In this document: positions 2-38,316 of the stretch, one piece after another | Numbering within the stretch: the stretch's first letter is position 1 | Layout of the letters: the number at the start of each line of letters is the position of its first letter | DNA from: Vulcanisaeta sp. JCM 16161 | GTDB taxonomy: Archaea; Thermoproteota; Thermoprotei; Thermoproteales; Thermocladiaceae | Direction of reading: 5' to 3' | NCBI RefSeq assembly: GCF_001316285.1 | Contig: NZ_BBDO01000007.1 | Coordinates: forward strand, 62,001-126,000 | DNA: 64,000 bases | Program-made: the position numbers and the translations under genes | Notes under the pieces: model-generated | Told to the model about the DNA's origin: nothing | The model's input: only the letters and a program-made list of their open reading frames with translations | Database searches by the model: none

Positions 2-554
2 CCACCGGCTGAGTATGAGAGGGTGGTAGCAGTCGCCGCAACGAGCGAGGGATTGAGTAGGTGGGAGATTGGTCGCCATAGGTGGCTGATTTACTGGCAA
101 TGTGGAACATGTCGAGGGAGGGCTTTAGGCAACTGTATGATCAAGTACCTGGTGGTAAGCCATCGTTTGAGGAGGCCTTTAGATTAACGGGTGGAAACCC
201 ATCATTACTAGCTAGGCTATACAGGGAGTCCTGGGACACGAACCTAGTCGCGAGGAAACTCGTTGAGGAGAAGAGGGTCACGCCGGGATTCGTGGCTAAA
301 TGGAGGAACTACCTTAAGGATATAATTGATGACCCAGACGCACTATGGCGCCCTGACGTACCCGAGGAATTAATCAATGAATTAACCAGGAGAAACCTAA
401 TACTTTACTTCATGCCGGACCGCGATGCAAGGCTGTGGATTGATGAACCACCGCCGGAGAAGGATCCGGAATTGGGGATTGTAGGTACGTGGCTTGGCAA
501 ACACCGCTACATAGGGAGGCTGTCAGGATTGTTCTTGAGGGTGCCGGGAAGTGA
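2..554 (+). CDS. AAA+ ATPase paralog 1 (5' end outside window, frameshifted)
   Basis: C-terminal half of an archaeal AAA-type ATPase; its P-loop lies before the window. From base 2 the frame reads PPAEYERVVAVAATSEG, the sensor-like stretch shared by all paralogs here. Near base 83 the frame breaks at TGGCT, where intact paralogs have TGGGCT (Trp-Ala), and resumes as ADLLAMWNMSREGF. A second single-base loss near 487 hides the normal tail (GRYVAWQTPLHREAV). Joined this way, it stops at 552-554 and overlaps the next paralog's GTG (551) in a GTGA junction, so it belongs to the same operon. Function unknown. The family resembles prokaryotic STAND/ATPase proteins of Thermoproteales. Both breaks are probably sequencing indels. 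Confidence 0.75.
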
Positions 555-1645
555 GGAGGGTTATACTCGACTTCGCCAACACTAAAGTCGAGTTCGCCGA
601 TAGAGAGCTCGCAATTAAGCAGGTCGAGGAGTGGGCTGATAAGGGCACGTACCCAGTCCAGGTTATCTATGGGCCTGAGGGCTGTGGTAAGACTGCCTGG
701 TTGCTTCAGTCTGTTGAGTTGCTTAAGGAGCTTGGCTTCGAGGTTATTTACGTTAACCCAATTAATAAGTTCACCATAGCTGAGTTCGGCATTGAGGGTT
801 TAAGGAATAGGTTCCTAAAGCTCGTTGAGGAGGCGATTAGTCAGAATGTATTGGCTAGGATTGCGTGGATAGCCTATGATACAGCCTATGAATTGGTTAA
901 GGTGACGAGGGGCAGGGTTGCGATCATTGTTGATGATGCATTCCAGGTGATTGGCGTTAAGGAGTCGGCAATGTACGTTAAGGCGCTGCTAAATTTGATA
1001 GAGTATCCACCTGAGCATTACGAGAGGATAATTACGATTGCTGCAACCAGTGAAGGATCCTCGAGGTTCGAGGTTGGTAAGCATAGGTGGGCTAACACGC
1101 TGGCCATGTGGAACCTGGGTAAGGAGGGATTCAAGCAATTATACGAGCAAGTGCCAGGCAGTAAGCCTAGCCTTGACGAGGCCTGGAAATTAACGGGTGG
1201 AAACCCAGGAATTCTAGAGGAGCTTTACAGGGCGAATTGGGATGTTGATAAGGTCATTGATAGGCTTATTGAGGGGAAGAGGCTTATGGCGTTCATAACC
1301 TCACTCAACCCCAGCGAGAGGGAGCTCATAATGAGGGCCCTAGACGACCCAGACATATTGATGAGTGGAAAAGGGATACCGCTACTCAACAGGCTAATCG
1401 AATTAAACCTAGCCCTAGACATACCCAGTAGGAAGCCATACCTATGGGTTGATGAGCCACCGCCAGAGAGGGACTTGGAACTTGGTATTGGACGCTATGT
1501 GGCTTGGCAGAGTCCATTACACAGAGAAGCCGTGAAGAGGGCGTTAGAGGCACCTAGCAGTAGGTTAATGGCCATGGTTACGGCGCCTATTGATTGCGAA
1601 TTGACGTGGGATTTTAAGCACCATAGACGTGGTGGAAAGGTTTGA
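551..1645 (+). CDS. AAA+ ATPase paralog 2
   Basis: A 364-residue P-loop ATPase. It starts at a GTG overlapping the previous stop and encodes MRR at the N-terminus, like its paralogs. Walker A GPEGCGKT is near residues 41-48, Walker B VAIIVDDAF near 125-133, and a TIAATSEG sensor-like strand follows. The C-terminal half carries the paralog-specific helical region (TGGNPGILEEL) and the shared YVAWQSPLHREAV signature. After that signature it has about 25 extra residues not found in the other copies, possibly a read-through caused by a lost base near the end. It is probably a cytoplasmic regulator or defence-type ATPase. Partner and substrate cannot be inferred. Confidence 0.85.
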   Translation: MRRVILDFANTKVEFADRELAIKQVEEWADKGTYPVQVIYGPEGCGKTAWLLQSVELLKELGFEVIYVNPINKFTIAEFGIEGLRNRFLKLVEEAISQNVLARIAWIAYDTAYELVKVTRGRVAIIVDDAFQVIGVKESAMYVKALLNLIEYPPEHYERIITIAATSEGSSRFEVGKHRWANTLAMWNLGKEGFKQLYEQVPGSKPSLDEAWKLTGGNPGILEELYRANWDVDKVIDRLIEGKRLMAFITSLNPSERELIMRALDDPDILMSGKGIPLLNRLIELNLALDIPSRKPYLWVDEPPPERDLELGIGRYVAWQSPLHREAVKRALEAPSSRLMAMVTAPIDCELTWDFKHHRRGGKV

Positions 1646-1682
1646 TTAAACCCTTTAGAAAGCCATCAATAATTGGCGGTGT

Positions 1683-2897
1683 ATGAGGAGACTCACTATT
1701 AGGAATATTGGTCCAATTAGTAAGGCCGATATTGAGATAACGCCCTGGGTTATCATAGTCGGTGGTAACGCCTCGGGGAAAACCATAATATCAACAATTC
1801 ACTACCTAACCCTCTTCCAATCAGCACCGTCAATGCCCTGGAGAATTAACCTAGGCACCATTAGAGCGGGGGTGCAGGAGACCTCAATAAGTGTTAAGGA
1901 ATTGATAGAAGAAAACCGTGAATTATTCAAGCAATTATTAACCAATGAGATAAGGAGATTATTCAATGCGGAGCCACATGGGCTGGTTAAGATCGGTGAG
2001 GATGAGGGTAGGATAGAGGTAATTACTGACTCGTTGGTGTTAAGCGTCATTATTGATAGGCGGGGTAATGCCGTGGGGTTTGACGTGAATGGTGATAGGA
2101 AGTTGAGCGTAATCATAGAATACGCAAAGAGCAACTACACACAATGCATCTCAAGTGGAGTTGTTGAGGATGGCCAGTACAGGGTCTCAGTCATGGGTAG
2201 CAACACCGACTGCGCGGCGCACATAATAGGGTCTTACGTACTGAGCCGGGCATTTGGCGATACATGGTCCCCAGCCGCCTTCCTAGCCACTGAGAGGATC
2301 GCCATCTTAGCCCTGCACCCAGGCATTATGAGGCTAATCCTAACTCCAGAACCAGTGACCATAAGCAAACCATTACCATTATTAATGGACTTCCTAAGGT
2401 GGATTGCGCCCGGTGAGTATAGGGAGGAATTGAGTGGGTTGACAATAACATACCAACCAAGCGCAATAACGATTAGATCTGGTGGAGGTAACATACCGCC
2501 ATCGCTGGTCTCGACCGGGATATACCAAGCATTCGCAATAGAGGCTGTGGCGAGGAACCCCATCGTGAGGACGATGATTATTGAAGAGCCGGAAATAAAC
2601 CTACACGCAGACGCCGAAATAAGGATGGTGAGGTACCTAGCCAGTATAAGGGATAAGAACATGTTCGTAACAACGCACAGCGAGTGGATGGTGATGGGCA
2701 TAGCCCATGAATTAAATAGGCAGGGGAGGCTAAAGGATCTAAGGATCTACGAGATTAGGAATGGCAATGTCGTTGAAGTACCCATTGGGAAGAATGGCGA
2801 GGTGGAGGCCCTAGAAACAATAACGCCGGTCCGGGAAGAATACCTAAGGGAAATTATTGAGGAGGTGCTCAGTAATGAGCAAGGTAATAACCATTAA
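1683..2897 (+). CDS. ABC-type / OLD-like ATPase (AAA_15/AAA_21)
   Basis: A 404-residue SMC/ABC-like ATPase of the class found in OLD, Septu and PARIS-type defence modules. Walker A GGNASGKT lies at residues 27-34 after an N-terminal MRRLTIRNIGPI strand. The ABC signature region (VSTGIYQAF) comes near 280, Walker B with D-loop MIIEEPEINLHA near 298-309, and the H-loop TTHSE near 330. No TOPRIM or other nuclease domain is visible after the ATPase, so a nuclease would have to be supplied in trans. Its 3' end overlaps the next small gene, implying translational coupling. It sits inside the tandem ATPase array and is unrelated in fold class to those paralogs. Confidence 0.85.
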   Translation: MRRLTIRNIGPISKADIEITPWVIIVGGNASGKTIISTIHYLTLFQSAPSMPWRINLGTIRAGVQETSISVKELIEENRELFKQLLTNEIRRLFNAEPHGLVKIGEDEGRIEVITDSLVLSVIIDRRGNAVGFDVNGDRKLSVIIEYAKSNYTQCISSGVVEDGQYRVSVMGSNTDCAAHIIGSYVLSRAFGDTWSPAAFLATERIAILALHPGIMRLILTPEPVTISKPLPLLMDFLRWIAPGEYREELSGLTITYQPSAITIRSGGGNIPPSLVSTGIYQAFAIEAVARNPIVRTMIIEEPEINLHADAEIRMVRYLASIRDKNMFVTTHSEWMVMGIAHELNRQGRLKDLRIYEIRNGNVVEVPIGKNGEVEALETITPVREEYLREIIEEVLSNEQGNNH

Positions 2898-3261
2898 TGG
2901 AAACATCGCATGCATTAAATACGACTTAGTATGTGGCAAGGGCGTAGACGCACTATGCACGGACTACACAAAGGCACCAACAAGCGATAATATATACCTA
3001 GTCGAGATTAAGGGCAAGAACCTAACCAATGCGATAGAGAATATCGAGAAGACCCTGAAGAGAGATCCCAACACAGGCTGTGGGCTTGTATTAAAACCCC
3101 GAGAAGTATTCATAGTGTATGACGGGAACACACCCAAGAGTCAGCAGTATGAGTCGTTAAAGATCCAATTAATGGTTAAGTACAAACTCGTTATAAGTGA
3201 AATACCATTTAATGAAGCCAATAAACACCCAATACCAAGCACAGCATTAACGCTAGGCTGA
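2875..3261 (+). CDS. small PD-(D/E)xK-like partner protein
   Basis: A 128-residue protein with its ATG at 2875, after an AGGAGGTG ribosome-binding site inside the preceding ATPase gene; an in-frame TTG at 2857 is less likely. The segment YDLVCGKGVDALCTDY followed by IYLVEIKGK resembles the D...(D/E)xK core of PD-(D/E)xK nucleases: an acidic residue, then a beta strand ending VEIKGK, then a helix (NLTNAIENIEKTL). It overlaps the ABC-type ATPase gene by 23 bases, so the two probably act together as an ATPase/effector module. The nuclease assignment is an inference from the motif only. No database search was possible. Confidence 0.6.
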   Translation: MSKVITINGNIACIKYDLVCGKGVDALCTDYTKAPTSDNIYLVEIKGKNLTNAIENIEKTLKRDPNTGCGLVLKPREVFIVYDGNTPKSQQYESLKIQLMVKYKLVISEIPFNEANKHPIPSTALTLG

Positions 3262-3442
3262 GAAACCTAAAGTAAAACCATGAAGCCCTCGAAAGACCAT
3301 TACTGAAACCAACCAGTGAGGATTACATGGCCGTGATCGCCGCGACAATCCTCGTAAAGGAGCCAATAAATAAAGTTGAGGAGCTTGAGCTAGGGACAAA
3401 GCGGAATTAAGGGCATCAGTAAGGCAAATGTACCAGGACACG
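3262..3442. other. gene remnant between module and next ATPase
   Basis: About 180 bases without an intact gene. On the plus strand, roughly 3310-3410 reads as a short open stretch (DYMAVIAATILVKEP then VEELELG) ending in TAA. It looks like the C-terminal tail of a lost gene, of unknown family. Confidence 0.35.
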
Positions 3443-4455
3443 ATGAGGAGGATTAGGCTTAGCTTCGCCAATACCCAGGTGGAATTCGTTGATAGGGAGA
3501 AAGCCCTTGGACAGGTTAGGGATTGGGCTGAGAAGGGCACTTTCCCGGTGCAAGTTGTTTATGGTCCTGAGGGTTGTGGCAAGACTGCCTGGCTCCTACA
3601 GTCTGTGGAACTCCTTAAGGAACTCGGCTTCGACGTTATCTACATCAATATACCCAACAAGGAGGTTCTTGCTGAGTTCAGTATCACTGATTTACGGAGT
3701 AGGTTCCTCACACTGGCGAGAGAAGCCATTGCCCAGAACGCCCTTGGTAAATTGGCTTGGCTGGCCTTCGACATGGCCAAGGAGTTAATTAAATTAACGA
3801 GGGGCAAAATAGCGGTCATCGTTGATGATGCATTCCAGGTAATCGGCGTTAAGGAGTCGGCATTGTATGTAAAGGCACTGCTAAACCTCATTGAATACCC
3901 ACCGGAAATGTACGAGAGGATAATTACGATAGCAGCAACGAGCGAGGGCGTCTCAAGGCGCGAGATCGGCAGACACACGTGGCTGAGATAATGCCGATAT
4001 GGAACATGCCCAGGGAAGGATTCAGGCAACTCTATGAGCAGGTGCCCGGAGATAAGCCGGGCTTCGAGGAGGTATGGAGGTTGACCGGTGGAAACCCGAG
4101 GATTCTCGAGGAATTATACAGGGCTGGTTGGAACACCGACAGGGTGATTGAGGGGTTCATTAGGGGGAGGGGCATCGACATACTCATTAACTCATTAAGC
4201 GGTAGCGAGAAGCGCGTATTGGCGGAGACTGTGGATGACCCAGACGCATTATTCACGAGGGAGGGAGTACCGTTAATGGACAAATTAATAGAACTGAACC
4301 TGGTACTCGACATATCGGACAGGAAGCCATACCTATGGATTGATGAACCACCGCCAGAGAAGGATCCTGAGCTGGGCATTGGTAGGCGTGTTGCGTGGCA
4401 AACGCCACTACACAGGGAAGCCATCAGGAGGGCATTAGAGGGTGTTAGGCCATGA
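3443..4455 (+). CDS. AAA+ ATPase paralog 3 (frameshifted)
   Basis: Full-length paralog apart from one frame break. I choose the ATG at 3443, which gives the conserved MRRIRL N-terminus and starts ATGAGGAGG like its neighbours. Walker A GPEGCGKT, Walker B IAVIVDDAF and TIAATSEG are present in the first part. The frame breaks near 3980 at TGGCT where the family has TGGGCT, exactly the same alignment position as in paralog 1. The second part (from about 3979) continues with MPIWNMPREGF and ends in the HREAIRRALEG tail. The stop overlaps the next ATG (4452). If the break is real, the protein splits into an ATPase core and a C-terminal domain. Confidence 0.8.
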
Positions 4456-5471
4456 GGAGGATTAAACTGCCCCTAGCACAGGGACTACAGGTTGACTTCG
4501 TTGATAGGGATCTTGCCCTTAGGCGTGTTGAGGATTGGGTTGATAGGGGTATGAGGCTTGTGGAGGTGGTCTACGGACCAGAGGGCTGCGGAAAAACCGC
4601 ATGGCTCCTTCAATCAGCGGAGTTGCTCAGAGAATTGGGCTTTGACGTTGTTTACGTTAATCCCATTGATAGGGAGGTCCTCGCCGAGTTTAGTGTTAAG
4701 GAGTTGAGGGGGGAGTTCATGAGGCTTGTTAGGGAGGTCATTAGCCAAAATGCCCTTGGTAGGTTGGCTTGGTTGGCCTTCGACATGGCTAAGGAGTTGA
4801 TTAAGGCAACAAGAGGCAAAATAGCCGTAATAGTTGACGACGCCTTCCAAATACTCGGCGTAAAGGAATCAGCAATATACGTAAAGGCTTTGTTGAACCT
4901 AATCGAATACCCACCCGAGAGGTATGAGAAAATACTAACCATAGTAGCCACCAGTGAGGGCGTTTCGAGGCGTGAAATAGGTAGGCATGAGTGGGCAAAC
5001 CTAAGACCCATGTGGAACATGGCGAGGGAGGGCCTCAAGCAACTATACGAACAAATACCGGGAAGTAAGCCGGGCTTCGAGGAGGTTTGGAAAATAACCG
5101 GAGGTAACCCAAGGATGCTGGGGAGCCTTTATGAGGCTAATTGGGACGTTAATAAGGTGGTTAATGATATAATTAACAGGAAGAGGCTGAGAACATTTGT
5201 ATCAACCCTCCCAGGCAACGAAAGAGCCTGGCTTTTAGAGGCTGTTGAGGATCCAGATACGTTATTCACTAGGGAGAGGATACCCCTAATGGATAGGCTC
5301 GTCGAATTAAACCTAATAATCGACGACATACCCGAAAGAGATGAATACCAATGGGTTGATGAGCCACCGCCTGGGAGGGACTTGGAGCTGGGCATTGGGA
5401 AGTACGTCGCATGGCAAAGCCCACTCCACAGAGAGGCCGTTAGAAGAACGCTGGAGGAGGTTAGGCCGTGA
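4452..5471 (+). CDS. AAA+ ATPase paralog 4
   Basis: Intact 339-residue paralog. Walker A GPEGCGKT near residues 43-50, Walker B IAVIVDDAF near 125-133, then TIVATSEG and the YVAWQSPLHREAV tail. It starts with an ATG overlapping the stop of paralog 3 and its own stop overlaps the GTG of paralog 5, so four genes form one transcription unit. Bases 4704-4915 are identical to 5717-5928 in the next gene, including all synonymous sites, while flanking sequence has diverged. This points to recent gene conversion. The C-terminal region between about residues 215 and 300 is the most divergent part relative to the other copies. Confidence 0.88.
   Translation: MRRIKLPLAQGLQVDFVDRDLALRRVEDWVDRGMRLVEVVYGPEGCGKTAWLLQSAELLRELGFDVVYVNPIDREVLAEFSVKELRGEFMRLVREVISQNALGRLAWLAFDMAKELIKATRGKIAVIVDDAFQILGVKESAIYVKALLNLIEYPPERYEKILTIVATSEGVSRREIGRHEWANLRPMWNMAREGLKQLYEQIPGSKPGFEEVWKITGGNPRMLGSLYEANWDVNKVVNDIINRKRLRTFVSTLPGNERAWLLEAVEDPDTLFTRERIPLMDRLVELNLIIDDIPERDEYQWVDEPPPGRDLELGIGKYVAWQSPLHREAVRRTLEEVRP
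4704..4915 (+). repeat. gene-conversion tract, copy A
   Basis: 212 bases identical to 5717-5928 (offset 1013), spanning the codons from just after the P-loop domain to beyond Walker B. I compared the two base by base and saw no difference inside the tract; the first mismatch downstream is at 4916/5929. Identical third codon positions, next to diverged flanks, indicate recent recombination between the tandem genes. Confidence 0.85.
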
Positions 5472-6472
5472 GGAGGATCAGACTCAGATTCGCAGGTAGG
5501 GAAGTCGAGTTCGTTAATAGGGAGCAAGCCCTCAGGCTCATTGAGGATTGGGCCGAGAGGGGCACATACCCTGTTCAGGTGGTTTATGGTCCTGAGGGTT
5601 GTGGCAAGACTGCCTGGCTCCTACAGTCTGCTGAATTCCTTAAGGAGCTTGGCTTTGAGGTGATTTACGTAAACCCAATTAATAAGGAGGTTCTTGCTGA
5701 GTTGAGCATTGTTGATTTGAGGGGGGAGTTCATGAGGCTTGTTAGGGAGGTCATTAGCCAAAATGCCCTTGGTAGGTTGGCTTGGTTGGCCTTCGACATG
5801 GCTAAGGAGTTGATTAAGGCAACAAGAGGCAAAATAGCCGTAATAGTTGACGACGCCTTCCAAATACTCGGCGTAAAGGAATCAGCAATATACGTAAAGG
5901 CTTTGTTGAACCTAATCGAATACCCACCAGAAAGCTACGAAAGGATAGTCACCATAGCAGCCACGAGTGAGGGCGTTAGCCTGAGGGAGATCGGACGCCA
6001 CAGGTGGGCCTGGTCAACCCCCATGTGGAACATGGCGAAGGACAGCTTTAAACAATTATACGATCAAATACCCAGCAACAAGCCACCATTCGAAGAGGTC
6101 TGGAAAACAACCGGAGGGAACCCAGCAATGCTAGAGAATCTATACAAAGTTGACTGGAACATAGACGAGGTAGTGAACAAGCTCATTAAGGAGAAGGACC
6201 TATCACACAGCTTCATTAAGAAGTGGTCAAACCACCTAGGGGAGGCCGTTAATGACCCTGACTACCTATGGTTCAACGCGCCCGAGGAACTAATTAATGA
6301 GCTCATCGAGAGAAACCTCATCCTATACTTCCTACCCAAGAGAGACCCAAACCAGTGGATAGACCAACCACCACCAGAGAGGGACCCAGAACTCGGTATT
6401 GGGAAGTATGTGGCATGGCAAACACCGCTACACAGGGAGGCAGTGAGAAAAGCGCTACGGGAATTAACATGA
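5468..6472 (+). CDS. AAA+ ATPase paralog 5
   Basis: Intact 334-residue paralog and last gene of the array. Walker A GPEGCGKT at 41-48 and Walker B IAVIVDDAF at 123-131. Its C-terminal module (around KKWSNHLGEAVNDPDYLW and APEELINELIERN) resembles paralog 1 rather than paralog 4, while its core is identical to paralog 4 over 212 bases. The gene is therefore a mosaic, with one ATPase core and exchangeable C-terminal modules. It starts with GTGAGGAGG overlapping the previous stop. Function unknown. Confidence 0.88.
   Translation: MRRIRLRFAGREVEFVNREQALRLIEDWAERGTYPVQVVYGPEGCGKTAWLLQSAEFLKELGFEVIYVNPINKEVLAELSIVDLRGEFMRLVREVISQNALGRLAWLAFDMAKELIKATRGKIAVIVDDAFQILGVKESAIYVKALLNLIEYPPESYERIVTIAATSEGVSLREIGRHRWAWSTPMWNMAKDSFKQLYDQIPSNKPPFEEVWKTTGGNPAMLENLYKVDWNIDEVVNKLIKEKDLSHSFIKKWSNHLGEAVNDPDYLWFNAPEELINELIERNLILYFLPKRDPNQWIDQPPPERDPELGIGKYVAWQTPLHREAVRKALRELT
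5717..5928 (+). repeat. gene-conversion tract, copy B
   Basis: Partner of 4704-4915, with 212 identical bases inside paralog 5. A second, shorter shared tract covers the P-loop codons: about 46 identical bases near 3559 in paralog 3 and 5586 in paralog 5. Confidence 0.85.
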
Positions 6473-24542: not shown

Positions 24543-24581
24543 TATTAAGCCTAACGCATGCCATTATCATAGAGGCATTAA

Positions 24582-24695
24582 TACAGCACAAGAGCCATAG
24601 ACAAAGACCCACAGGACACCTCGAAATCCCTCACACTAGGAGGACTAGGCGCTATGTACGTACAAGGATGGCTAATAAGAAAGAGGTGTGGTTAA
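24582..24695 (+). pseudogene. C-terminal remnant at left flank of the replicon
   Basis: An open 37-codon stretch (YSTRAIDKDPQDTSK then LGGLGAMYVQGWLIRKR) ends in TAA. It has no start codon of its own and reads like the tail of a lost membrane-associated protein. It marks a degraded junction between the glycan island and the polymerase operon. Confidence 0.3.
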
Positions 24696-24743
24696 TGATT
24701 TTGTGTTAACCTCTTATTTCAGGTGTTAATATCCTTGGCTTAG

Positions 24744-26951
24744 CTATGTTGTTAGGTGGTTGAATAGTCCTGAGTCCCTTATTGTTTTTGCGCTTAGTTT
24801 CTCAATGTCCTGCCTTGTGACCTCTACTAGGTTTGTAACCTTAGCCATTATCTTGCCAACCTTCTTGTCGTAGGTTATGCTTACTCTGGCGATAACGGGC
24901 TTGTTATTGACTAGGAAGGCGAAGGACTTCATGTCTCCTTGCGTCTCGATTGGTAGGTAGAGCGTGTCTATGAAGGCATCCAAGTCAATGGGTTCGCCAT
25001 TGATTGCCCTACCCCTCACGTCGATGATGACGCCCTTGCCGTTTGCAACTGCCAAGTACGCGATTGCCGGGAACCTGGTCCTGTCAACACTGCTTATTGC
25101 CCTACCCTCACTCGTGTATAGCAGGTCCCTGTAGCTGATGCTGTGCTCGATGAATAGGTCCTCAAGGCCTGCACTGCCCACGAACTGCTTGATCAAGTCA
25201 TCAAGCCTAGAATCACCAAGAAGGATTGCCCTAACCCAGTCCCTATATGCCCCGTACCTCAAGCCCCTGGGCAGGTCACGTGGCTTCAGTGCCCCTCCCT
25301 TGATGACTAACTCGTCATTCTTCATCTTTATGTATGTCTTCTCCGCTGCACCACCTGCCTTACTCCTCGGTATGTAGACTATGTCCCAAACACTCTCCAG
25401 CTTCATCTCCATGAGTGGGCCATAGGTCCTGTGGAGGTAGTCATTAATCCCCTCAAGGAGCTTATTGGCATCCCTGCCATTAAGCTCGATGTACATCGAG
25501 TCAGTGTCACCATAGATTGGGCTGTACCTGCTCCACAAGTCGTCAAATATTGCCTGCGTCCTCTGGGCTATGTATGCGGCGACCCACTCATTAACCATGC
25601 CAATACCGCTCTTGCCAAAGATGCCATATGCTGAATTAACCAATATCTTCACTGCCTGGTCAGGGGCCTCGCCAAATGCTGCCTTCAATGCCTTTGTTGC
25701 CCTCCTAGCCCTGTAGAGGCTGGCCAGTACTTTATGAACAAGCCCGTTTGGTTCGAAGCATATCCTCCTCGTCCCGGCAGAAGTCCTCACTGGGAAGCCG
25801 TCCTGGCACTCCCTAATGTTTATTGGGTCCACATTATCCTGTGTGTAGAGGCTTGGGTACATGGCACTGAAGTCATACTCCGCAACACTCCTGAACAAGC
25901 CGTGTGCCCTAGCCCTAGTCTTGTCACCAGCCTCGTAGCTGAACTCCCTCTCCCTATCCTGAAGCACGATGCCGTTAAACTCAAGCCACCTGTGGATAAG
26001 GGCCTCAGCGAGGTGCCCCGGAGAGGCTGACTCAGCTACTTGGTTAATTACCATGGGGTTCGACCCAGTGATGGCGCCAAGGGCCTGAAGCACGGGTAAC
26101 CACCTCTGTGCCAGTGCGTATGTGACCATCACGTCAAAGCCCAAGTAAACCTCCAACTCACTCCTACTTAGCTGGTTGACCCTGCCCTGCATCGACTTGA
26201 GCCTCAGTAGCTCCGCCTCAGTAATGCCCAAGTCCCTGTGGATACCCAACTGAATCGCCACGTCATACAGCTTACTAGCCTCCTCCTGAATCCCGAGGCT
26301 TGACTTGAAGCCCGACTCAACGAACACGTAGAGGTCCATCAACGGCTTGATACCATGCTCGGTATTCAGTGCGTACCTGCTCCTCTCGTACATCGGTAGG
26401 TACTTGTAGTCAAAGCCCCAGGTGTTGTAGCCGACTGCCACGTCGAACTCCTCGGTAACGAGGTCGTGCACGTCGTTTGTTATTGTGATGTCTTCGCCAT
26501 CGATTGTGTAGCCGATGATGGGCTCGCCATTAATGACCTCAACATCGAGGGTCAGTACCCTGGGCATCCTACCCAGTGCATCCCTAATGACCGAGTCAAT
26601 ACTGCCCAGCATGTTCTCAATGGCTGCCCTACTCCTGAGTGTCCTGTCAATGCTGTTCCTAAGGCTGAACTTAATATATGATTGTCCAACCAAGTAGCCC
26701 CTCCTGATGTATGCATCCCTCACGCTGGGCACGTACGTGGGTGAGGAAACCCTAACCAGGTAAACAACCTTGTCACTCTCCCTGTAGCCAATGCCGTCCC
26801 ACGTGAATGCCGTTAGGCTTGTATCCTCAATGCCAATGACATTCCTCACCTTGACAGGCCTCGAATCACTAATCACGTAGAAGTATGGGTAGAACACCTC
26901 AACCTCCCCATCCTCCTTAACGAAAATGTTCTTAGTGACGTAGAACCTCAT
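24744..26951 (-). CDS. B-family DNA polymerase
   Basis: 735 residues, intact. The 3'-5' exonuclease is complete: Exo I LDVEV (D136, E138), Exo II GYNTWGFDY (174-182) and Exo III YLGFD (269-273). Polymerase motifs: A DFSAMYP (360-366), B KILVNSAYG (435-443), C YGDTDS (480-485), then a K-rich RSKAGG..EKTYI and IKGGALKPRD thumb/KxY-type region. Only about 70 residues separate motifs A and B, leaving no room for the TPR1/TPR2 insertions of protein-primed polymerases, so I read it as RNA/DNA-primed. It is shorter than cellular crenarchaeal PolB1/PolB3 (about 780-880 residues) and is most like polymerases of mobile elements. The ATG overlaps the primase stop (ATGA). It is the last gene of the operon. 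Confidence 0.9.
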   Translation of the reverse strand: MRFYVTKNIFVKEDGEVEVFYPYFYVISDSRPVKVRNVIGIEDTSLTAFTWDGIGYRESDKVVYLVRVSSPTYVPSVRDAYIRRGYLVGQSYIKFSLRNSIDRTLRSRAAIENMLGSIDSVIRDALGRMPRVLTLDVEVINGEPIIGYTIDGEDITITNDVHDLVTEEFDVAVGYNTWGFDYKYLPMYERSRYALNTEHGIKPLMDLYVFVESGFKSSLGIQEEASKLYDVAIQLGIHRDLGITEAELLRLKSMQGRVNQLSRSELEVYLGFDVMVTYALAQRWLPVLQALGAITGSNPMVINQVAESASPGHLAEALIHRWLEFNGIVLQDREREFSYEAGDKTRARAHGLFRSVAEYDFSAMYPSLYTQDNVDPINIRECQDGFPVRTSAGTRRICFEPNGLVHKVLASLYRARRATKALKAAFGEAPDQAVKILVNSAYGIFGKSGIGMVNEWVAAYIAQRTQAIFDDLWSRYSPIYGDTDSMYIELNGRDANKLLEGINDYLHRTYGPLMEMKLESVWDIVYIPRSKAGGAAEKTYIKMKNDELVIKGGALKPRDLPRGLRYGAYRDWVRAILLGDSRLDDLIKQFVGSAGLEDLFIEHSISYRDLLYTSEGRAISSVDRTRFPAIAYLAVANGKGVIIDVRGRAINGEPIDLDAFIDTLYLPIETQGDMKSFAFLVNNKPVIARVSITYDKKVGKIMAKVTNLVEVTRQDIEKLSAKTIRDSGLFNHLTT

Positions 26952-27940
26952 GAACCCTCACCTGGGCACCTCAGATCCTCGGGTATCTCATGCCCATTGC
27001 ACCTCTCCCTCACTGTTTTGCATGAGATGGGTAACCTGCCCTGGCTAATCCAGTGCTCGTACGCGTACTTAATATGATACCTAGTCCTTTCCTCATTAAA
27101 GTCACTCGCTGCCTTGAACACATCCACAATCTCATCCTCACTATGACCCAGGTAGAGGAGCCATTCTGCTATTGCCAACCTGCCGTAGTGGCAAAGCTCA
27201 CCTGTCTTCCTTAGGTACTCAATCAATTGTTGGACCAATTGGGCAGTTTCTTCGTGGCATCCCTACTACTCCTAACCACCCTAGAAATGAGCTTGGGTCG
27301 ACCTTCTTCGCTGGTGGCTTAACGTCCTCGAAGAGGATCCTTGAGGGAACCCTATTAATTATTAATTTGTTTATTACACTGAAGTCGAGGCTTAGGAACT
27401 TGCCTACATTCCCAGTCCTTGGGTGTGGCGTGCCGGGTACCCTAAAGGCGTGCTTCGCCTCAGTGACTGCCATGTCCATGCCGAGTTCATCAAGGAGCTT
27501 GACCCAGGGCCTCCTAAGCTCTGCACTCGCCACGACGGGCTCGAGTAGGTAATTGATGAAGTATAGGGACTTGTTTCCATTCCACCAAATGGTCGGCATT
27601 AAATTCAGTATTGGCCTCAGTGAGTCCCTCCTCTCCCTAGCCCAGTTAACCACGCACTCGAGCCTACTCTCGGCGTCCTCACATTCGTCAATGTCGGCCT
27701 CGAAGACAACCACATCCCTAAACACGCAGTCCTCATCCAAAGCCAGTGAGTAGCACTGCCAAACACCGATTATTTCACCATCCCTAACAAGCCTAAGGGC
27801 GTCATCCCTACCAATGGGTAGCTTACCCGTGAGCCACGTGTTACCTGCCAGTAGTTATAACGCCTATAGCCCCAGGTCAATGAGTTAATGAACATGTTTA
27901 TCACATCCACATCAACCCTAGAGTTGATCTTTGACCTCAT
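26948..27940 (-). CDS. archaeo-eukaryotic primase, PriS-like core plus PriL-like Fe-S domain (frameshifted)
   Basis: Joined from three frames, about 330 residues, with ATG at 27940 and breaks near 27843 and 27235. The AEP catalytic strand reads VVFEADIDECED (DxD). The second motif region NGNKSLYFINY has Tyr where most AEPs have His, and AFRVPGTPHPRTG is the PriS-type 'R.PGS.H.KTG' motif. After the second break comes a domain like the C-terminal domain of PriL: LCHYGRLAIAEWLLYLG, DFNEERTRYHIKYAYEH, then ISCKTVRERC and RCPG. With Cys in RRNCP before the break, this supplies the cysteines of a 4Fe-4S site. PriS-PriL fusions are known from the Thermococcus plasmid pTN2. It should prime the adjacent polymerase. 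Confidence 0.72.
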
Positions 27941-28232
27941 CCCACCTCACCTTTTCCCTCCACTTACCCTTACTCCCTTCAGTCCCTCTTGACCCACTTT
28001 CAACCCCTATCTTATCTGAACCTTGTTCAGAAGACCCCGGGGTTAAACTAACGCTCTCTACACCCTCTACGCCCACCTGTTCTGGAGTATATTTATTTTG
28101 TCTCTTCTCATCTAGAACTGAACGACCAGTCTCGGAACTGGGGTTTAGATTGCCTATATATGCGCCCCCGGTGGGCGTAGTGGGTGTTGGGGCGTTTAAA
28201 TTACCCCGGGTCTCTTCTGTACTTTTTTTCAT
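27918..28232 (-). CDS. small low-complexity linker protein of the replicon
   Basis: 104 residues rich in Ser, Thr, Gly, Pro, Glu and Lys (for example APTPTTPTGG and GSEQ-type stretches) with a charged C-terminus WREKVRWDEVKDQL. It is probably intrinsically disordered. Its start lies inside the 3' end of the helicase gene (32-base overlap) and its stop overlaps the primase start, so it is part of the operon. It could be a disordered tether between helicase and primase, or the C-terminal tail of the helicase after an unnoticed frameshift. No homology recognised. Confidence 0.55.
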   Translation of the reverse strand: MKKSTEETRGNLNAPTPTTPTGGAYIGNLNPSSETGRSVLDEKRQNKYTPEQVGVEGVESVSLTPGSSEQGSDKIGVESGSRGTEGSKGKWREKVRWDEVKDQL

Positions 28233-30114
28233 TGTCTACGTGGAGGTCGAACAGGATTGAAAGTAACTCATCAAGTGTAAACCTATAACCATGCTCATCG
28301 CCAATTTCCATTTTACTCCTCCCAAGTAGCTGCCTTGGTGTTCCAATGCCGTTCCTGTTTCTAGCACTGGGAAACGCATGGTACAGTAAGTAAACGACCA
28401 CGCTGTTCCTCCTCAGTAATTCATTTATAATATCAATAAACACATCATCAATTATTGGGCTCCTCCTCCTGCATTGCTGCTTATCAATCTCGCTAACATC
28501 ACCAAGTTCCTCACCATTCTCGCAAATGAGGCTAATTACCCTCCTCCTTATTTCAATCGACTCATCGCTCCACCTTGGCTCCTTAAACACGACCCTGGCC
28601 CTGTCTGCGTTCCTTACCAATGCCTGGAGCCTGTCAGCAGCCGTCTTGATCTGTATGCCTAAGCCCTCGAGCCAATCCTCAAACGCAGCCCTAATCCTCG
28701 TAACGTCCCTTTCCCTTATTGACTTGTCAATCTCCTCCTCAATAACGAGCCTCCTATGCCTACCCGCCTCCTCACGCTCACTCGCAAGTGCGTATAGTGC
28801 GTCCTCAACATCGCTGAAGTCAATACCGAACTCCCTGGTTATGAAGCCCCACAGGCTCGCCGCAAACCATAGGAAGTTGAGGTACTTATCCCTCGTCTTC
28901 TCCGTCTCCTGCTTCATGAGCATTAGCAACTCATTGCCGTAGTTGCTCACGATGTGGTTGAGCACGAGGAGCATGTTCGGCATTTCGATACTGTAGAGTA
29001 TCTTTCTTAGCTCAGCACCGTTCGGCCTAGCCTCATTCATATTAATCAGCACCAACCTCCTATCCAGAATTGCAATTGCCCTCGCCCTATTCCCCTCACC
29101 CATCGCCCTAATGACTTCGTTGTACACATCCACCTCGCCCTCCGCGTTCGTGATTATGAACGCCATCCTCATGATTGGCATCCTCTCCCTCAGGCCTGGC
29201 CCGTACTGCCTAGCCCTAGCGAGGCTCACGGACTTATCGCTCGCGGCGCCCATCTGCAGGATTAGGTTCACGACCTTGTCATTCATTATCACGTCGTCAA
29301 AGACCACGGGTAGTGTGGACTCAGTCATCAAGCCAAGCAGTCTCGGCAGGGTCTCGGTGACGTGCGTGCCCTCCGTGATCAATGTGACCCTATCCCCAAC
29401 GCCGAGGGTCTCAACCAACGTGTTGAAGAGCGTTGTCTTGTTAATGTTTGGGTAGCCGAACACGATTGGTACGGGCGTGTCGGAGTTCCTCATGAAAGAC
29501 CTATACGGCTGAAACAACGCGTATGAGTAATACAAACCAGCGATTCGCAGCGGCACCGCCGGGTTGCGGAAGGCGCCCTTAACCTCGTCAAGTAATTTCC
29601 TGATCTTCCCGAGCTCATTAACGACCTCCTCCCTACTCGCTTTCTTGACTTCAACACCCGCGTAGCCGGGCTCCCAGTAGATGCCCCTCGCTGGGTCGTA
29701 GATGAAGCCAACCGTGAAGTGGAATGACGCCACGTACTTAGTTGCTAGTACCGTGCGTAGCCTATCAATGACGTCACGCCTCGCGGTAACGCCAATCGTC
29801 AGTAGTCCCTCCGTCAACGCGGTGCTCGAGTAGTCAAACACGTACGTCTCGACACCGCCTCCATTCCTAATCCTCGCAACGTAGAAGTCGGCGTGAAGCA
29901 CGGCATCGCTGATGCGCATTAGGTCGATGAGGTTGTTCAGCTTGTACACCGTGTCAACAACGAGACACCTAAGCCTCGTGTAGAGCTTTCCATTCCTAGT
30001 GATCGCTCCATTGACTGCGCAGTCCTCGGTGAGAAAGCCGACAACCCCCTCATGGTACGCGTCCCTCTCCCTAAAGACGACGAGGTGGAGCACGCCATCA
30101 GGGCCCCTCACCAC
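28201..30114 (-). CDS. SF3-like / AAA+ replicative helicase
   Basis: 637 residues, intact. Walker A sits at 220-228 as GYPNINKTT: the usual GKT glycine is Asn, giving NKT. Walker B is PVVFDDV (269-275). The strand MAFIITNAE (317-325) ends in Asn, as motif C of superfamily 3 helicases does, and LDRRLVLI further on may carry an arginine finger. The N-terminal 200 residues have no recognised domain; the C-terminal 250 are helical and charged. SF3 helicases partner AEP primases in many plasmids and viruses, which fits the two genes downstream. The GTG at 30114 overlaps the preceding gene's stop. Confidence 0.68.
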   Translation of the reverse strand: MVRGPDGVLHLVVFRERDAYHEGVVGFLTEDCAVNGAITRNGKLYTRLRCLVVDTVYKLNNLIDLMRISDAVLHADFYVARIRNGGGVETYVFDYSSTALTEGLLTIGVTARRDVIDRLRTVLATKYVASFHFTVGFIYDPARGIYWEPGYAGVEVKKASREEVVNELGKIRKLLDEVKGAFRNPAVPLRIAGLYYSYALFQPYRSFMRNSDTPVPIVFGYPNINKTTLFNTLVETLGVGDRVTLITEGTHVTETLPRLLGLMTESTLPVVFDDVIMNDKVVNLILQMGAASDKSVSLARARQYGPGLRERMPIMRMAFIITNAEGEVDVYNEVIRAMGEGNRARAIAILDRRLVLINMNEARPNGAELRKILYSIEMPNMLLVLNHIVSNYGNELLMLMKQETEKTRDKYLNFLWFAASLWGFITREFGIDFSDVEDALYALASEREEAGRHRRLVIEEEIDKSIRERDVTRIRAAFEDWLEGLGIQIKTAADRLQALVRNADRARVVFKEPRWSDESIEIRRRVISLICENGEELGDVSEIDKQQCRRRSPIIDDVFIDIINELLRRNSVVVYLLYHAFPSARNRNGIGTPRQLLGRSKMEIGDEHGYRFTLDELLSILFDLHVDNEKKYRRDPG

Positions 30115-30440
30115 GGCATAGGCCTCACGGCCCTGCTATCCACGAAGCCCCACAGCGCGTCCCTGGCCCTCGCAACCTCAATGAATATTGAGAACTTGGC
30201 ATCAGGCGCCCTCTTGGCGTCTAGGTCCTTCAATAGTGAGTAGGCGCTGAGGAACTCACTGGTTACGTACCCCAGGGCACCACTGTCCATGCCATGCCTC
30301 CTCACGTAATCCCTGGCGAGTCCCGCAATGAATGCCTGCTCCACCTCGCTCAGGGTGTTCGGCCCAGGCGCATTAACGGCGCTGTAGGCGCCACCAACAC
30401 CCTCCTCAATCCCCCAATTATTCGTGTTCGCCGAGGCCAT
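30108..30440 (-). CDS. unknown small protein of the replicon
   Basis: 110 residues. A Gly/Asn-rich N-terminus precedes a helical part (TLSEVEQAFIAGLARDYVRR and FSIFIEVARARDALWGFV). No family recognised. Its ATG follows the GGGGTGA stop region of the upstream gene by four bases, and its stop overlaps the helicase GTG. It is therefore co-expressed with the helicase and may be a loader or origin-binding factor; that is speculation from position only. Confidence 0.65.
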   Translation of the reverse strand: MASANTNNWGIEEGVGGAYSAVNAPGPNTLSEVEQAFIAGLARDYVRRHGMDSGALGYVTSEFLSAYSLLKDLDAKRAPDAKFSIFIEVARARDALWGFVDSRAVRPMPW

Positions 30441-30443
30441 GAC

Positions 30444-30907
30444 TCACCCCTCGTTAGCCCCCATACCGAGGTGATGAGTGAGTGCCCACCTAACGTGGCG
30501 CATCAAGCACTTGAAGGCATGGTCACCAACCTCCCCATACAGCCTCCCCACATCATCGCCATTGAGTAGGTCCAGGGCAACACTGCAGTGGGGGCGCCCC
30601 TGGGTGCCGGGGAGCAGTGACTTAACGCAAATGCATGGAGCAGTCCATGTATGTACCTCTCGGGGCTGTGCCCAACGTCGTAATCGGCAACGAAGACCCA
30701 GGCCAGGCCAGGGCCGCCCGACCTAACCAGCAATGAGGCGTGGGTTACCGTGTCATAACTATCAATCACCAGTATAATCGGTGCATAGCCCTCAAACTCA
30801 TTGAGTAATTCTACGTAGAGGTCCCAACCACTTTTGCCGCAATCCCCAGAGGCAATGCACGACTCATCACCCGGCCTATCTGGGTAATCGCGGGACCGCA
30901 TCATCAA
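30444..30907 (-). CDS. possible P-loop protein of the replicon (frameshifted)
   Basis: About 154 residues. The frame opening at 30907 is natural up to about 30615, then must switch (one lost base near the CTGCTCCCC run) to read LLPGTQGRPHCSVALDLL, CLMRHVRWALTHHLG and a stop at 30444. That stop is immediately before the next ATG. An ASGDCGKSGWDLY segment resembles Walker A, and APIILVIDSYD resembles Walker B, so a small RecA-like fold is possible but unproven. The ATG at 30907 overlaps the upstream gene. Confidence 0.55.
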
Positions 30908-31464
30908 GGGTCACCACCGATGTGCCACTTCTCGTACATTGGGTACGTGCAGTGATTCGTCACGTTGCACTCAATACTCCTCCACTCATACTCAATGGCC
31001 TCGCTATACGTTACCACTTCCCTCACGCACCTCCTGTTCGGTTTACCCAGGAAGACGCGCAGCGGTTCATTGGAGAGCCAGTAGTTCTCCGCAAGTACGT
31101 TTAATCGCCTCGGTATGTAGATCGCGGGCCACCACCGGTAAGTCGTGACCCTGGCGATGAACCTATCGAGCAACTCATTACCCTCATCAACAATGATAAC
31201 CAGGACACGCACACCACGGAGCGCGCTTAGGAATTCCGACACAAAGTCATCACCCCTCAGCGGCTTAGCAATGTAGTGGTTACCATTCTTGATCAAACCA
31301 AGCCTAAGCGGTTTCCTCCTATCTAACCACTCATTTAGTACTATGTTATATAGAAGCAATAGGGCCAGTGGACGCCCAACACCAACCACGCCGCCTGGCT
31401 TAATACTATTAATCAACCCTACGATTGAGTTCCTCATGCATCCTATATCGAATATGTTGACCAT
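30904..31464 (-). CDS. first gene of the replicon operon, unknown
   Basis: 186 residues, intact. GGVVGVGRPLALLLLYN followed by VRVLVIIVDEGNELLDRF looks like a degenerate nucleotide-binding fold: a glycine-rich loop without the Walker lysine, then a hydrophobic strand ending DE. Similar patterns occur in the following gene, and the two may be diverged relatives. The C-terminus contains five cysteines (for example RSIECNVTNHC), possibly metal-binding. It starts at the ATG at 31464 with a weak TATA-like TAATTAAG about 27 bases upstream, so it probably opens the seven-gene unit. Confidence 0.65.
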   Translation of the reverse strand: MVNIFDIGCMRNSIVGLINSIKPGGVVGVGRPLALLLLYNIVLNEWLDRRKPLRLGLIKNGNHYIAKPLRGDDFVSEFLSALRGVRVLVIIVDEGNELLDRFIARVTTYRWWPAIYIPRRLNVLAENYWLSNEPLRVFLGKPNRRCVREVVTYSEAIEYEWRSIECNVTNHCTYPMYEKWHIGGDP

Positions 31465-31689
31465 ACGACGGAACCCAGGAAGGGGGCTTAATTAGAAGGG
31501 GGTCTGAATTACATCCCTAAGATAAATATCAAAAATAATCTATAAATATTTAAATAAATCTGACAATAAATCTTTTATATTTACCAAAGGATCTGGCTGC
31601 TAATTAGTAATTTAGGTAGATAAAAGACAAACCTGGCAGGACACCGTGTAAGATAATGCTTTTCCACTCCTAGGCTGAACATCGCAGTC
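31465..31689. other. AT-rich intergenic region, candidate promoter/origin of the replicon
   Basis: About 225 bases without a gene. Bases 31520-31605 are strikingly AT-rich (runs such as ATAAATATTTAAATAAAT) compared with the flanks. The region holds the probable minus-strand operon promoter (TAATTAAG at 31488-31495). An AT-rich tract upstream of a replication operon is a reasonable place for an origin, but I see no clear iterons. Confidence 0.4.
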
Positions 31690-32217
31690 CTAGTCATTGG
31701 CACGCCCAGGGAGGATTCGGGGAGCGCTATGGATAGGCTTGGTTGGTGCTGGGGTTCTTGGGGTTAATCCTAGGACTCTCGATGATGAGAGTGATGAAGT
31801 CGTTGTTGACTTTGTGGCTAGGTTGATACGTGGGTTCCTTGGTAGGGGTTTCTCTAGGGTTGTCTTTATTCCGTTTGGTTTTTGGTAGTTTTAAGGGTAG
31901 GTTCTTCGATGATGATCTTGATTATTGCCGAGATGCTCAAGTCCAGGGTTCCTGGACCTAGGGTAATCAATGAGGGGTTGAGCCCGCTGCAGGTTCTTTG
32001 CCTATTTAATTACCTGGATCATGTGATTGCCATGAGGCATCATGCCGCGGTATTCGCATTGTTGGCAGGCAAATCAGTGACTGTTATTGTTTACGATACG
32101 AAAATCATGGAGCTCATTAAAAGGTTTAGGGGAGGTGGGGTTAAGACGGTGTTCACACCTGCGGATTCATGGCGGATACCCGCGAGGGGTGAGGAACCGT
32201 TCAGGCCCAAACCCTAG
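31690..32217 (+). pseudogene. polysaccharide pyruvyl transferase, 5'-truncated and frameshifted
   Basis: Two frames joined near 31885. The first reads IGLVGAGVLGVNPR and VVVDFVARLIRGFLGRGF; the second reads NEGLSPLQVLCLF, DHVIAMRHHAAVFALLAG and VIVYDTKIMELIKRF. The D.VI..R.HA and Y..K motifs are those of the WcaK/CsaB pyruvyltransferase family, which adds ketal pyruvate to sugars. The N-terminal third is not found upstream. It lies just beyond the replicon's right side and belongs functionally to the glycan island on the left side. Confidence 0.62.
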
Positions 32218-37305: not shown

Positions 37306-38316
37306 CTAAGTCATCCCCAACGCCCTCTTGACGGCTTCCCTATGAAGCGGTGATTGCCAGGCCACGTATTTACCTATCCCAAGCTCTAGATCCCTCTCGG
37401 GTGGTGGGGCGTCAATCCATAGGTTGTCGTCTCGCCACTCCGGTATTTCCAGGGCTAGGTTTAGTTCGATTAACCTATTCATCAGTGGTATCCCCTCCCT
37501 ACCCATGAGCACGTCCGGATCCTCCAACGCCCTAATCAATAACTCCCTGTCATTAGGCCCTAGTGATGCTATGAATGCCCTAACGCCCTTTTTATCAATC
37601 AACTCCCTCACCACGGCATCACCATTCCAGTTATTTTCATAGAGCCTCTCGAGAATCCTCGGGTTCCCACCCGTCAGTTTCCAAACTTCCTCAAATGGCG
37701 GCTTATCGCCGGGCACTTGCTCGTACAATTGCCTAAACCCATCCCTACCCATGTTCCACATCGCTAATAAATCAGCCCATTCATGCCTACCAATCTCACG
37801 CCTCGAAACACCCTCACTCGTAGCCACAATCGTGACTATCCTCTCATAGGGCCTCGGCGGATGCTCTAAAATACCCAGGAGACCCTTAACGTATATTGCG
37901 GCCCTGTCCAGGCCTATCGCTTGGAATGCGTCGTCAATTATTATTGCGATTTTTCCACGGCCAAGGCTTATTGCCTCCCTCACAACATCAATTACCGACC
38001 AAGCAACACCACCCCAGGATAACCGCGATGTAGCCTCCCTAACCAGGTTGATTAACCTATCCCTGAGGCTTTGTACGCCAATCTCAATCGCGAACTCCTC
38101 CTCGATTGGGTTTAGGTAGATCACGTCGAAACCACGCTCCCCAAGCAACTCCACAGACTGCCTAAGCCACGCGGTTTTTCCGCAGCCCTCAGGGCCGTAG
38201 ACCACCTTCGGGAATCCAGTACCCCTATTAGCCCAATACTCAATGCGCTTAAGGGCAAGGTACCTATCGGTGAATTCAATGATTAAATTGGCGAAGCCCA
38301 GCCTAATCCTCTTCAC
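37306..38316 (-). CDS. AAA+ ATPase paralog 6 (intact, dispersed copy)
   Basis: 336 residues, intact, from GTG at 38316 (MKRIRLGFANL). It is the same family as the array at 0.5-6.5 kb: Walker A GPEGCGKTAW, Walker B IAIIIDDAF, TIVATSEG, TGGNPRILERL and the YVAWQSPLHREAV tail. It keeps TGGGCT at the position where paralogs 1 and 3 have lost a G, which gives the reference reading there. It stands alone, 31 kb from the array and on the other strand, beside PaREP1 remnants as the array also is. Confidence 0.88.
   Translation of the reverse strand: MKRIRLGFANLIIEFTDRYLALKRIEYWANRGTGFPKVVYGPEGCGKTAWLRQSVELLGERGFDVIYLNPIEEEFAIEIGVQSLRDRLINLVREATSRLSWGGVAWSVIDVVREAISLGRGKIAIIIDDAFQAIGLDRAAIYVKGLLGILEHPPRPYERIVTIVATSEGVSRREIGRHEWADLLAMWNMGRDGFRQLYEQVPGDKPPFEEVWKLTGGNPRILERLYENNWNGDAVVRELIDKKGVRAFIASLGPNDRELLIRALEDPDVLMGREGIPLMNRLIELNLALEIPEWRDDNLWIDAPPPERDLELGIGKYVAWQSPLHREAVKRALGMT

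Follow-up and report, generated by a model that had tools for sequence, protein, structure and literature searches.

Within a 64,000-nucleotide stretch of Vulcanisaeta sp. JCM 16161 (contig NZ_BBDO01000007.1; hereafter the window), the minus strand between 31464 and 24744 carries an operon of five genes, in which a P-loop ATPase, an archaeo-eukaryotic primase (AEP) and a family B DNA polymerase (PolB) follow one another. We think it likely that this is the stranded replication operon of a mobile element, old, immobile and still constrained, which has been inherited with the chromosome since before the window species and Vulcanisaeta souniana split. An origin in a mobile element, already proposed in an initial annotation of this DNA, appears well supported on sequence grounds, because a close relative of the operon in V. 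souniana (copy B) lies in an element with an integrase and tRNA-Gly repeats and more distant relatives lie in elements at tRNA-Ser and tRNA-Gln genes.

The initial annotation had described seven genes overlapping stop to start. The minus-strand open reading frames (ORFs) that it listed are present at 24.7-31.5 kb (186, 134, 110, 637, 104, 56/173/96 and 735 residues), and primase, PolB and ATPase do stand together in one operon, but the operon has five genes. In V. souniana the same stretch, copy A (locus L125; chromosome G021, 2,432,148 bp), consists of five intact ORFs of 200, 152, 851, 339 and 734 residues (L125 5022-5624, 5621-6079, 6076-8631, 8609-9628 and 9625-11829). All four junctions overlap there, by 4, 4, 23 and 4 bases, so the stop-to-start arrangement holds for V. 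souniana and fails in the window, where gaps of 62 bases between the 134- and 110-residue ORFs and of 29 bases between the 56- and 173-residue ORFs interrupt it. Genes 1 (30904..31464, minus strand, as are all five; 186 residues) and 2 (30440..30907; a 134-residue ORF at 30503-30907, with the 3' part out of frame) encode small proteins without a known family. Gene 3 (27918..30440) encodes the P-loop ATPase, represented in the window by the ORFs of 110, 637 and 104 residues; the 'unknown' and 'disordered' proteins that had been listed as genes of their own are its 110- and 104-residue pieces. Gene 4 (26948..27940) is the AEP primase with a PriL-type C-terminal domain, broken in the window into three ORFs (56, 173 and 96 residues), and gene 5 (24744..26951) is the intact 735-residue PolB with exonuclease motifs.

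Frame changes are common in the window, housekeeping genes included. Eight of 14 V. distributa ORFs (above 60% identity, outside an array of ATPase and PaREP1 genes) map to it in more than one frame, and one 637-residue V. distributa ORF matches it in five pieces at 92-98% identity. We therefore attribute the extra ORFs of the operon to the same cause, which is likely assembly error, with decay of the window copy as the alternative. A metagenome protein (P0081) is identical across the 637-residue ORF and continues into the 104-residue ORF; this read-through, the five intact ORFs of copy A and the window-wide frame changes rule out seven separate genes. Programmed frameshifting need not be invoked for the primase either, since V. 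souniana has a single ORF and the window shows frame changes well beyond this gene. The first residue of P0081 is also the first of the 637-residue ORF, so the break between the 110- and 637-residue ORFs may be present in an independent assembly too, and any start assigned to the ATPase is tentative. That conserved genes change frame so often across the whole window suggests an assembly rich in errors, and readings based on its ORFs need caution.

Gene 4 encodes an AEP domain, with the fold of that family, fused to a PriL-type domain. The PriL-type domain and the PolB, both named in the initial annotation, are borne out by a Pfam scan of the window ORFs (PF04104 at 1.3e-10 and PF00136 at 4.4e-6), and the primase gives PF04104 at 1.7e-9 (37.9 bits, cut-off 22.4). 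In a scan of the whole protein, which is short, no other Pfam match and no sign of a PriCT-1 domain or a C-terminal winged helix was found. Motif I reads ExD (E82, D84) in 10 of 10 aligned rows, in place of the DxD that the relatives at loci L171 and L172 have, and motif II reads KS-x-Y in the same ten rows, without the motif II histidine. Four cysteines that are candidate 4Fe-4S ligands (259, 316, 323 and 334) are retained in 7 of 11 aligned rows, among which P0094 is truncated and P0095-P0097 lack the full set. Against the PHROGs collection the primase matched phrog_9660 (function unknown) at 6.6e-5, and the other operon proteins scanned gave matches only above 0.03.

The PolB of gene 5 has the full set of motifs that we take to be Exo I-III (DVE at 136, YNTWGFD at 175, YLGFD at 269) and polymerase motifs A, B, C and KxY (DFSAMYPS at 360, KILVNSAYG at 435, YGDTDS at 480, KTYIK at 538). 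Motifs A and B are only 75 residues apart, a spacing that presumably speaks against the TPR1/TPR2 inserts of protein-primed PolB. The family profile aligns at 2.1e-38 to 5mdn, the PolB3 of P. calidifontis (PMC7544198). Searched against 81 genomes of the class, the profile matches 13 at E <= 1e-50, and the next match (1.2e-34) is a chromosomal PolB. In a tree of 52 rows (drawn from 21 of 80 protein matches and 15 of 16 chromosomal loci, L111 giving no row), the window PolB and those of V. souniana copies A and B form one group (100/99), the 32-row set containing the window has support of 99/98, and the 15 chromosomal rows separate at 100/100; the program flags long branches and uneven composition, and the deepest joins are unsure. 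By these comparisons, the family of the window PolB is clearly distinct from the chromosomal polymerases. Eight of 45 genomes of the order carry a short PolB of the same family (L115-L122; 550-585 residues), and these cluster (100/100) within the 32-row set. The Exo I and II patterns are unmatched in their N-terminal parts, and they are probably domesticated polymerases. A solo full-length PolB of the family also occurs in genome G030 (L127:9956-12184; 43-45% identity), adjoining a PaREP1-like gene, with no primase or ATPase of the operon kind alongside. Among metagenome proteins, PolB P0016 and primase P0097 come from contigs that are both 8239 long, which only hints at linkage.

The ATPase of gene 3 has a P-loop, FGxPNxNKTT, that is identical in all 6 aligned rows and carries asparagine at the usual glycine position; a Walker-B-like DDV is conserved as well. 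By eye the order of P-loop, DD, hhN and RR looks to us like that of superfamily 3 (SF3) helicases, and the initial annotation had called the protein SF3-like. Pfam and NCBIfam, however, give no SF3 match and none to MCM or another cellular helicase family, and an alignment with hhalign to 24 segments from an SF3 search covered 23 columns at the P-loop alone, at a probability of 2.8% (23 segments from 23 of the 30 loci of a DUF5906 search, plus ORF904; one, L241, is not SF3-looking). The ATPase profile reached the PDB at 0.11 at best, with RuvB P-loops at 1.5-2.3, and the single sequence had no match there. Its AlphaFold2 model (predicted local distance difference test score 48) was too poor to use, and fold matches from it were set aside; PEPcase_2 (0.0034) and DUF1456 (0.73), each matched in Pfam by one of seven members, are taken as spurious. 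Seven proteins came back from a protein search, two of them from V. souniana and another the window's own sequence as found in a metagenome. Gene 3 is a probable replicative helicase or initiator, a label it receives because it precedes the primase and polymerase genes.

The clearest sign of where such an operon comes from is copy B of V. souniana (about 2,086,800-2,092,444). It has a like primase (split), a PolB that is broken near its N terminus and 77% identical to that of the window, and a different ATPase of 720 residues; its first protein is short and aligns weakly to gene 1 (30%). About 7 kb beyond it lies a tyrosine integrase (PF00589, 42.4 bits against a cut-off of 27.1) that overlaps an intact tRNA-Gly at 2,101,146-2,101,224. 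On the other side, at 2,085,608, is a piece of the same tRNA-Gly, with 24 and 18 exact bases separated by 29; in 20 shuffles no match was longer than 12-16 bases. Given the integrase and the tRNA-Gly repeats on both sides, we place copy B inside an integrative element about 15.6 kb long (L126:5609 to L131:1324, about 2,085,608-2,101,224). Besides the integrase and tRNA-Gly this holds a Thermopsin-like protein and several proteins without a family match: the one Thermopsin match apart, the proteins scanned had no Pfam match below 0.01 and no PHROG match below 0.1, so that the element may be a virus or a plasmid.

Relatives further removed are found in similar surroundings. In a metagenome-assembled genome of the Thermoproteaceae, a PolB-carrying element (L002:492-11422) has a tRNA-Ser at one end and a tyrosine integrase at the other, together with an exact repeat of 61 bp. 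The PolB relative there follows a 1198-residue protein that contains a P-loop and the motif DFD and is, by eye, possibly an AEP or a primase-ATPase fusion; a profile comparison among 17 proteins links it weakly to the ATPase family (7.8e-5). At L171:3028-12776, an AEP-PriL primase, a UvrD-like helicase and a tyrosine integrase stand between tRNA-Gln and its exact 45-bp repeat. Shuffled controls for these two loci gave at most 13 bases (12-13 for L171, whose repeat that script counts only as far as 39). At L172:7955-14271, an operon of 129-, 976- and 106-residue proteins with a 389-residue AEP-PriL protein, lacking a PolB, is followed by a serine resolvase; no tRNA-derived repeat was found at that locus. 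A search of genome contigs gave 27 loci, of which L001-L003 were studied.

With respect to its later history, the operon stands in the same island of glycan genes in the window and in V. souniana, where the shared blocks are collinear except for one inverted glycosyltransferase. Between the window and copy A, synonymous divergence (dS) of the five operon genes is 0.87-1.40, against 0.84-2.48 for core genes of the same pair (the script for this comparison skipped matches of fewer than 120 codons or with dN/dS, the ratio of nonsynonymous to synonymous divergence, above 0.6, and lists some genes twice). The ratio of nonsynonymous divergence (dN) to dS is 0.15 for PolB, 0.16 for the primase, 0.35 for the ATPase, 0.35 for gene 2 and 0.44 for gene 1, and these ratios point to purifying selection on the operon. 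The shared island, the core-like dS and the purifying selection together make inheritance since the split of the two species probable. The initial annotation had held that vertical inheritance at this place in all relatives would speak against an integrated replicon. On this point the outcome is divided: V. souniana has the operon in the same island with core-like dS, but no operon DNA was matched in stretches from five related genomes, namely V. distributa (G017), V. moutnovskia (G020), G019, G022 and G027 (the last a contig of 9.8 kb only), whose PolB matches are at the chromosomal level or absent.

Several observations weigh against a stranded, vertically inherited operon. Values of dS are near saturation, so that this test of vertical inheritance is weak. 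V. distributa is closer to the window in core genes (80-88% DNA identity, one gene 74%, against 71-84% for V. souniana) and yet is without the operon, so either loss or transfer must be invoked. The dN of the element (0.17-0.41) exceeds that of core genes (0.04-0.19), and about 1 kb extra beyond PolB in V. souniana means that the junctions differ from those of the window. No direct repeats flank the operon. Lastly, the PolB tree joins V. souniana A with B and leaves the window outside, unlike simple vertical descent of copy A. This grouping would be explained by a likely exchange of PolB between the two V. souniana copies, since parts of the two are as much as 97% alike and the window primase, in its middle, is nearer to A (72% alike) than to B (48%).

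Exchange of this kind, together with the five intact and constrained genes of copy A and the placement of copy B in an element with an integrase and tRNA repeats, is what one would expect if the operon were still an active replicon, excising by means of a recombinase in trans (in V. souniana perhaps that of copy B), or a plasmid caught while integrated. We regard this as unlikely. The initial annotation saw no integrase, transposase or capsid gene, and none was matched among the operon ORFs; integrase and resolvase were also without a match in 16 other window ORFs scanned, and both PF00589 matches of V. souniana lie more than 400 kb from copy A. An integrase together with attachment repeats is found at copy B, L002 and L171 and at neither the window operon nor copy A, within 10 kb of which no exact repeat of at least 16 bases occurs on the flanks. 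The same island is occupied in two species. Finally, collections of phages, plasmids and viruses gave no match to the primase or the ATPase. For PolB there was none in phages and one weak bacterial match in plasmids; against viral contigs the single sequence gave no confirmed match and the alignment only distant relatives, at 20-29% identity in the best 80 of 145 confirmed.

Another way to view the constraint on the operon is as the result of domestication, with selection maintaining it for a use that the host makes of it, such as damage-tolerant or local DNA synthesis. The low dN/dS of PolB and primase would fit, and the short PolBs in eight genomes of the order indicate that the family can become a lasting chromosomal gene. 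The ATPase, however, occurs in only 1 of 81 class genomes, that of V. souniana, and the operon has no host partner gene, and we consider this explanation improbable. Duplication of chromosomal replication genes, for which the resemblance of the PriL-type domain to cellular PriL could be cited, is very hard to maintain when the PolB falls far outside the chromosomal clade, motifs I and II are altered in the primase, which is a single fused protein, the ATPase matches no cellular helicase family and copy B lies inside an integrative element.

On the reading we prefer, that of a stranded operon, these genes would once have replicated an integrative plasmid or virus and become fixed, in a variable island of glycan genes, before the window species diverged from V. 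souniana. They would thereafter have been inherited with the chromosome, be lost or absent in the sister species, and have no free form today. While the element still replicated, its origin would have been opened or unwound by the ATPase, and primers laid by the AEP-PriL fusion would have been passed on for extension by the proofreading PolB; genes 1 and 2 would have had accessory roles, perhaps in binding DNA.

Several known systems resemble the operon in part, and literature searches turned up no paper on this operon. PolpTN2 of the Thermococcus plasmid pTN2 likewise has an AEP fused to a PriL-like domain, an adjoining helicase gene and a replaced motif II histidine (PMC3973330, PMC5862659); it has glutamine at that position and is nevertheless active (PMC5862659). 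It differs in size (about 923 residues against 339 here), and it has a PriCT-1 domain and a C-terminal winged helix, of which the scan of the operon primase gave no sign. The pTN2 helicase is of superfamily 1, and the host PolB is suggested as the primer extender there, whereas here the operon has its own (PMC3973330, PMC5862659). The HelPrimPolB replicases, of which GP55 from the lactococcal phage 1706 is one, share the order of helicase, AEP primase and family B polymerase (PMC7544198, PMC12205980), and GP55 and its homologues are described in these papers from phages of bacteria. They are single polypeptides, however, whereas the operon has separate overlapping genes; they have an unrelated helical domain where the operon primase has its PriL-type domain; and their helicase is stated to be SF3, to which the operon ATPase aligned at the P-loop alone. 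The pRN1 ORF904 type plasmids of Sulfolobales combine AEP priming and a P-loop ATPase in one replicon (PMC3973330), but do so in a fused AEP-SF3 protein, and the three genes annotated in the sequence record include no PolB. By analogy, the operon may work like the HelPrimPolB replicases without being a member of that group, and its primase resembles PolpTN2 in plan. A bolder proposal, which we offer tentatively and think rather doubtful, is that a foreign replisome core of initiator ATPase, primase with a PriL-type domain and proofreading PolB has long been kept as a working chromosomal operon, an unfused archaeal counterpart of the HelPrimPolB replicases that would copy DNA without the host primase or polymerases.

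The surroundings of the window operon include an AT-rich stretch upstream of gene 1 (31500..31600; 24-26% GC), partly alike in V. souniana, that is a candidate promoter or origin. In the window it has three direct repeats of 20 nt, all imperfect, whereas none were found in V. souniana. Sequence of the left flank (24560..24709) recurs in V. souniana and V. distributa and in two further genomes of the order (E <= 1e-9), and is therefore placed outside the operon. The right upstream region gave short weak matches only, in 4 of 45 genomes, and the right flank (31882..32217, plus strand) is a C-terminal fragment of a polysaccharide pyruvyl transferase. A tRNA-borne insertion in the window was rejected, the nearest tRNA found by ARAGORN being about 9 kb off, as was a casposon: no Cas1 match was found in the eight operon ORFs scanned, and inverted matches between the flanks reached no more than 11 bases (window) or 12 (V. 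souniana). Elsewhere in the window, 82-6472 and 37306-38316 hold an array of archaeal ATPase paralogues with PaREP1 genes (one scanned: PF01637), which is also present in V. souniana and V. distributa.

A 2014 survey described a divergent, apparently active PolB of Thermoproteales, grouped with the PolB of an integrated element (PMC4104785). That branch, with the tyrosine-recombinase elements IgnAgg-E3 and ArcSul-E1, resembles the operon in having a divergent PolB in Thermoproteales, and may be the one to which the window PolB belongs. The relevant parts of the survey report no conserved neighbours for these polymerases and leave open whether they originate from mobile elements (PMC4104785), whereas a primase and an ATPase accompany PolB here, and an integrase and tRNA repeats are found at copy B and L002. 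Such a PolB family is now tied both to an operon with primase and ATPase and to tRNA-repeat integrative elements, and the short PolBs that eight genomes of the order have retained belong to it too. Compact and of thermophilic origin, the operon proteins are also candidates for a three-protein replisome that could be tested in vitro.

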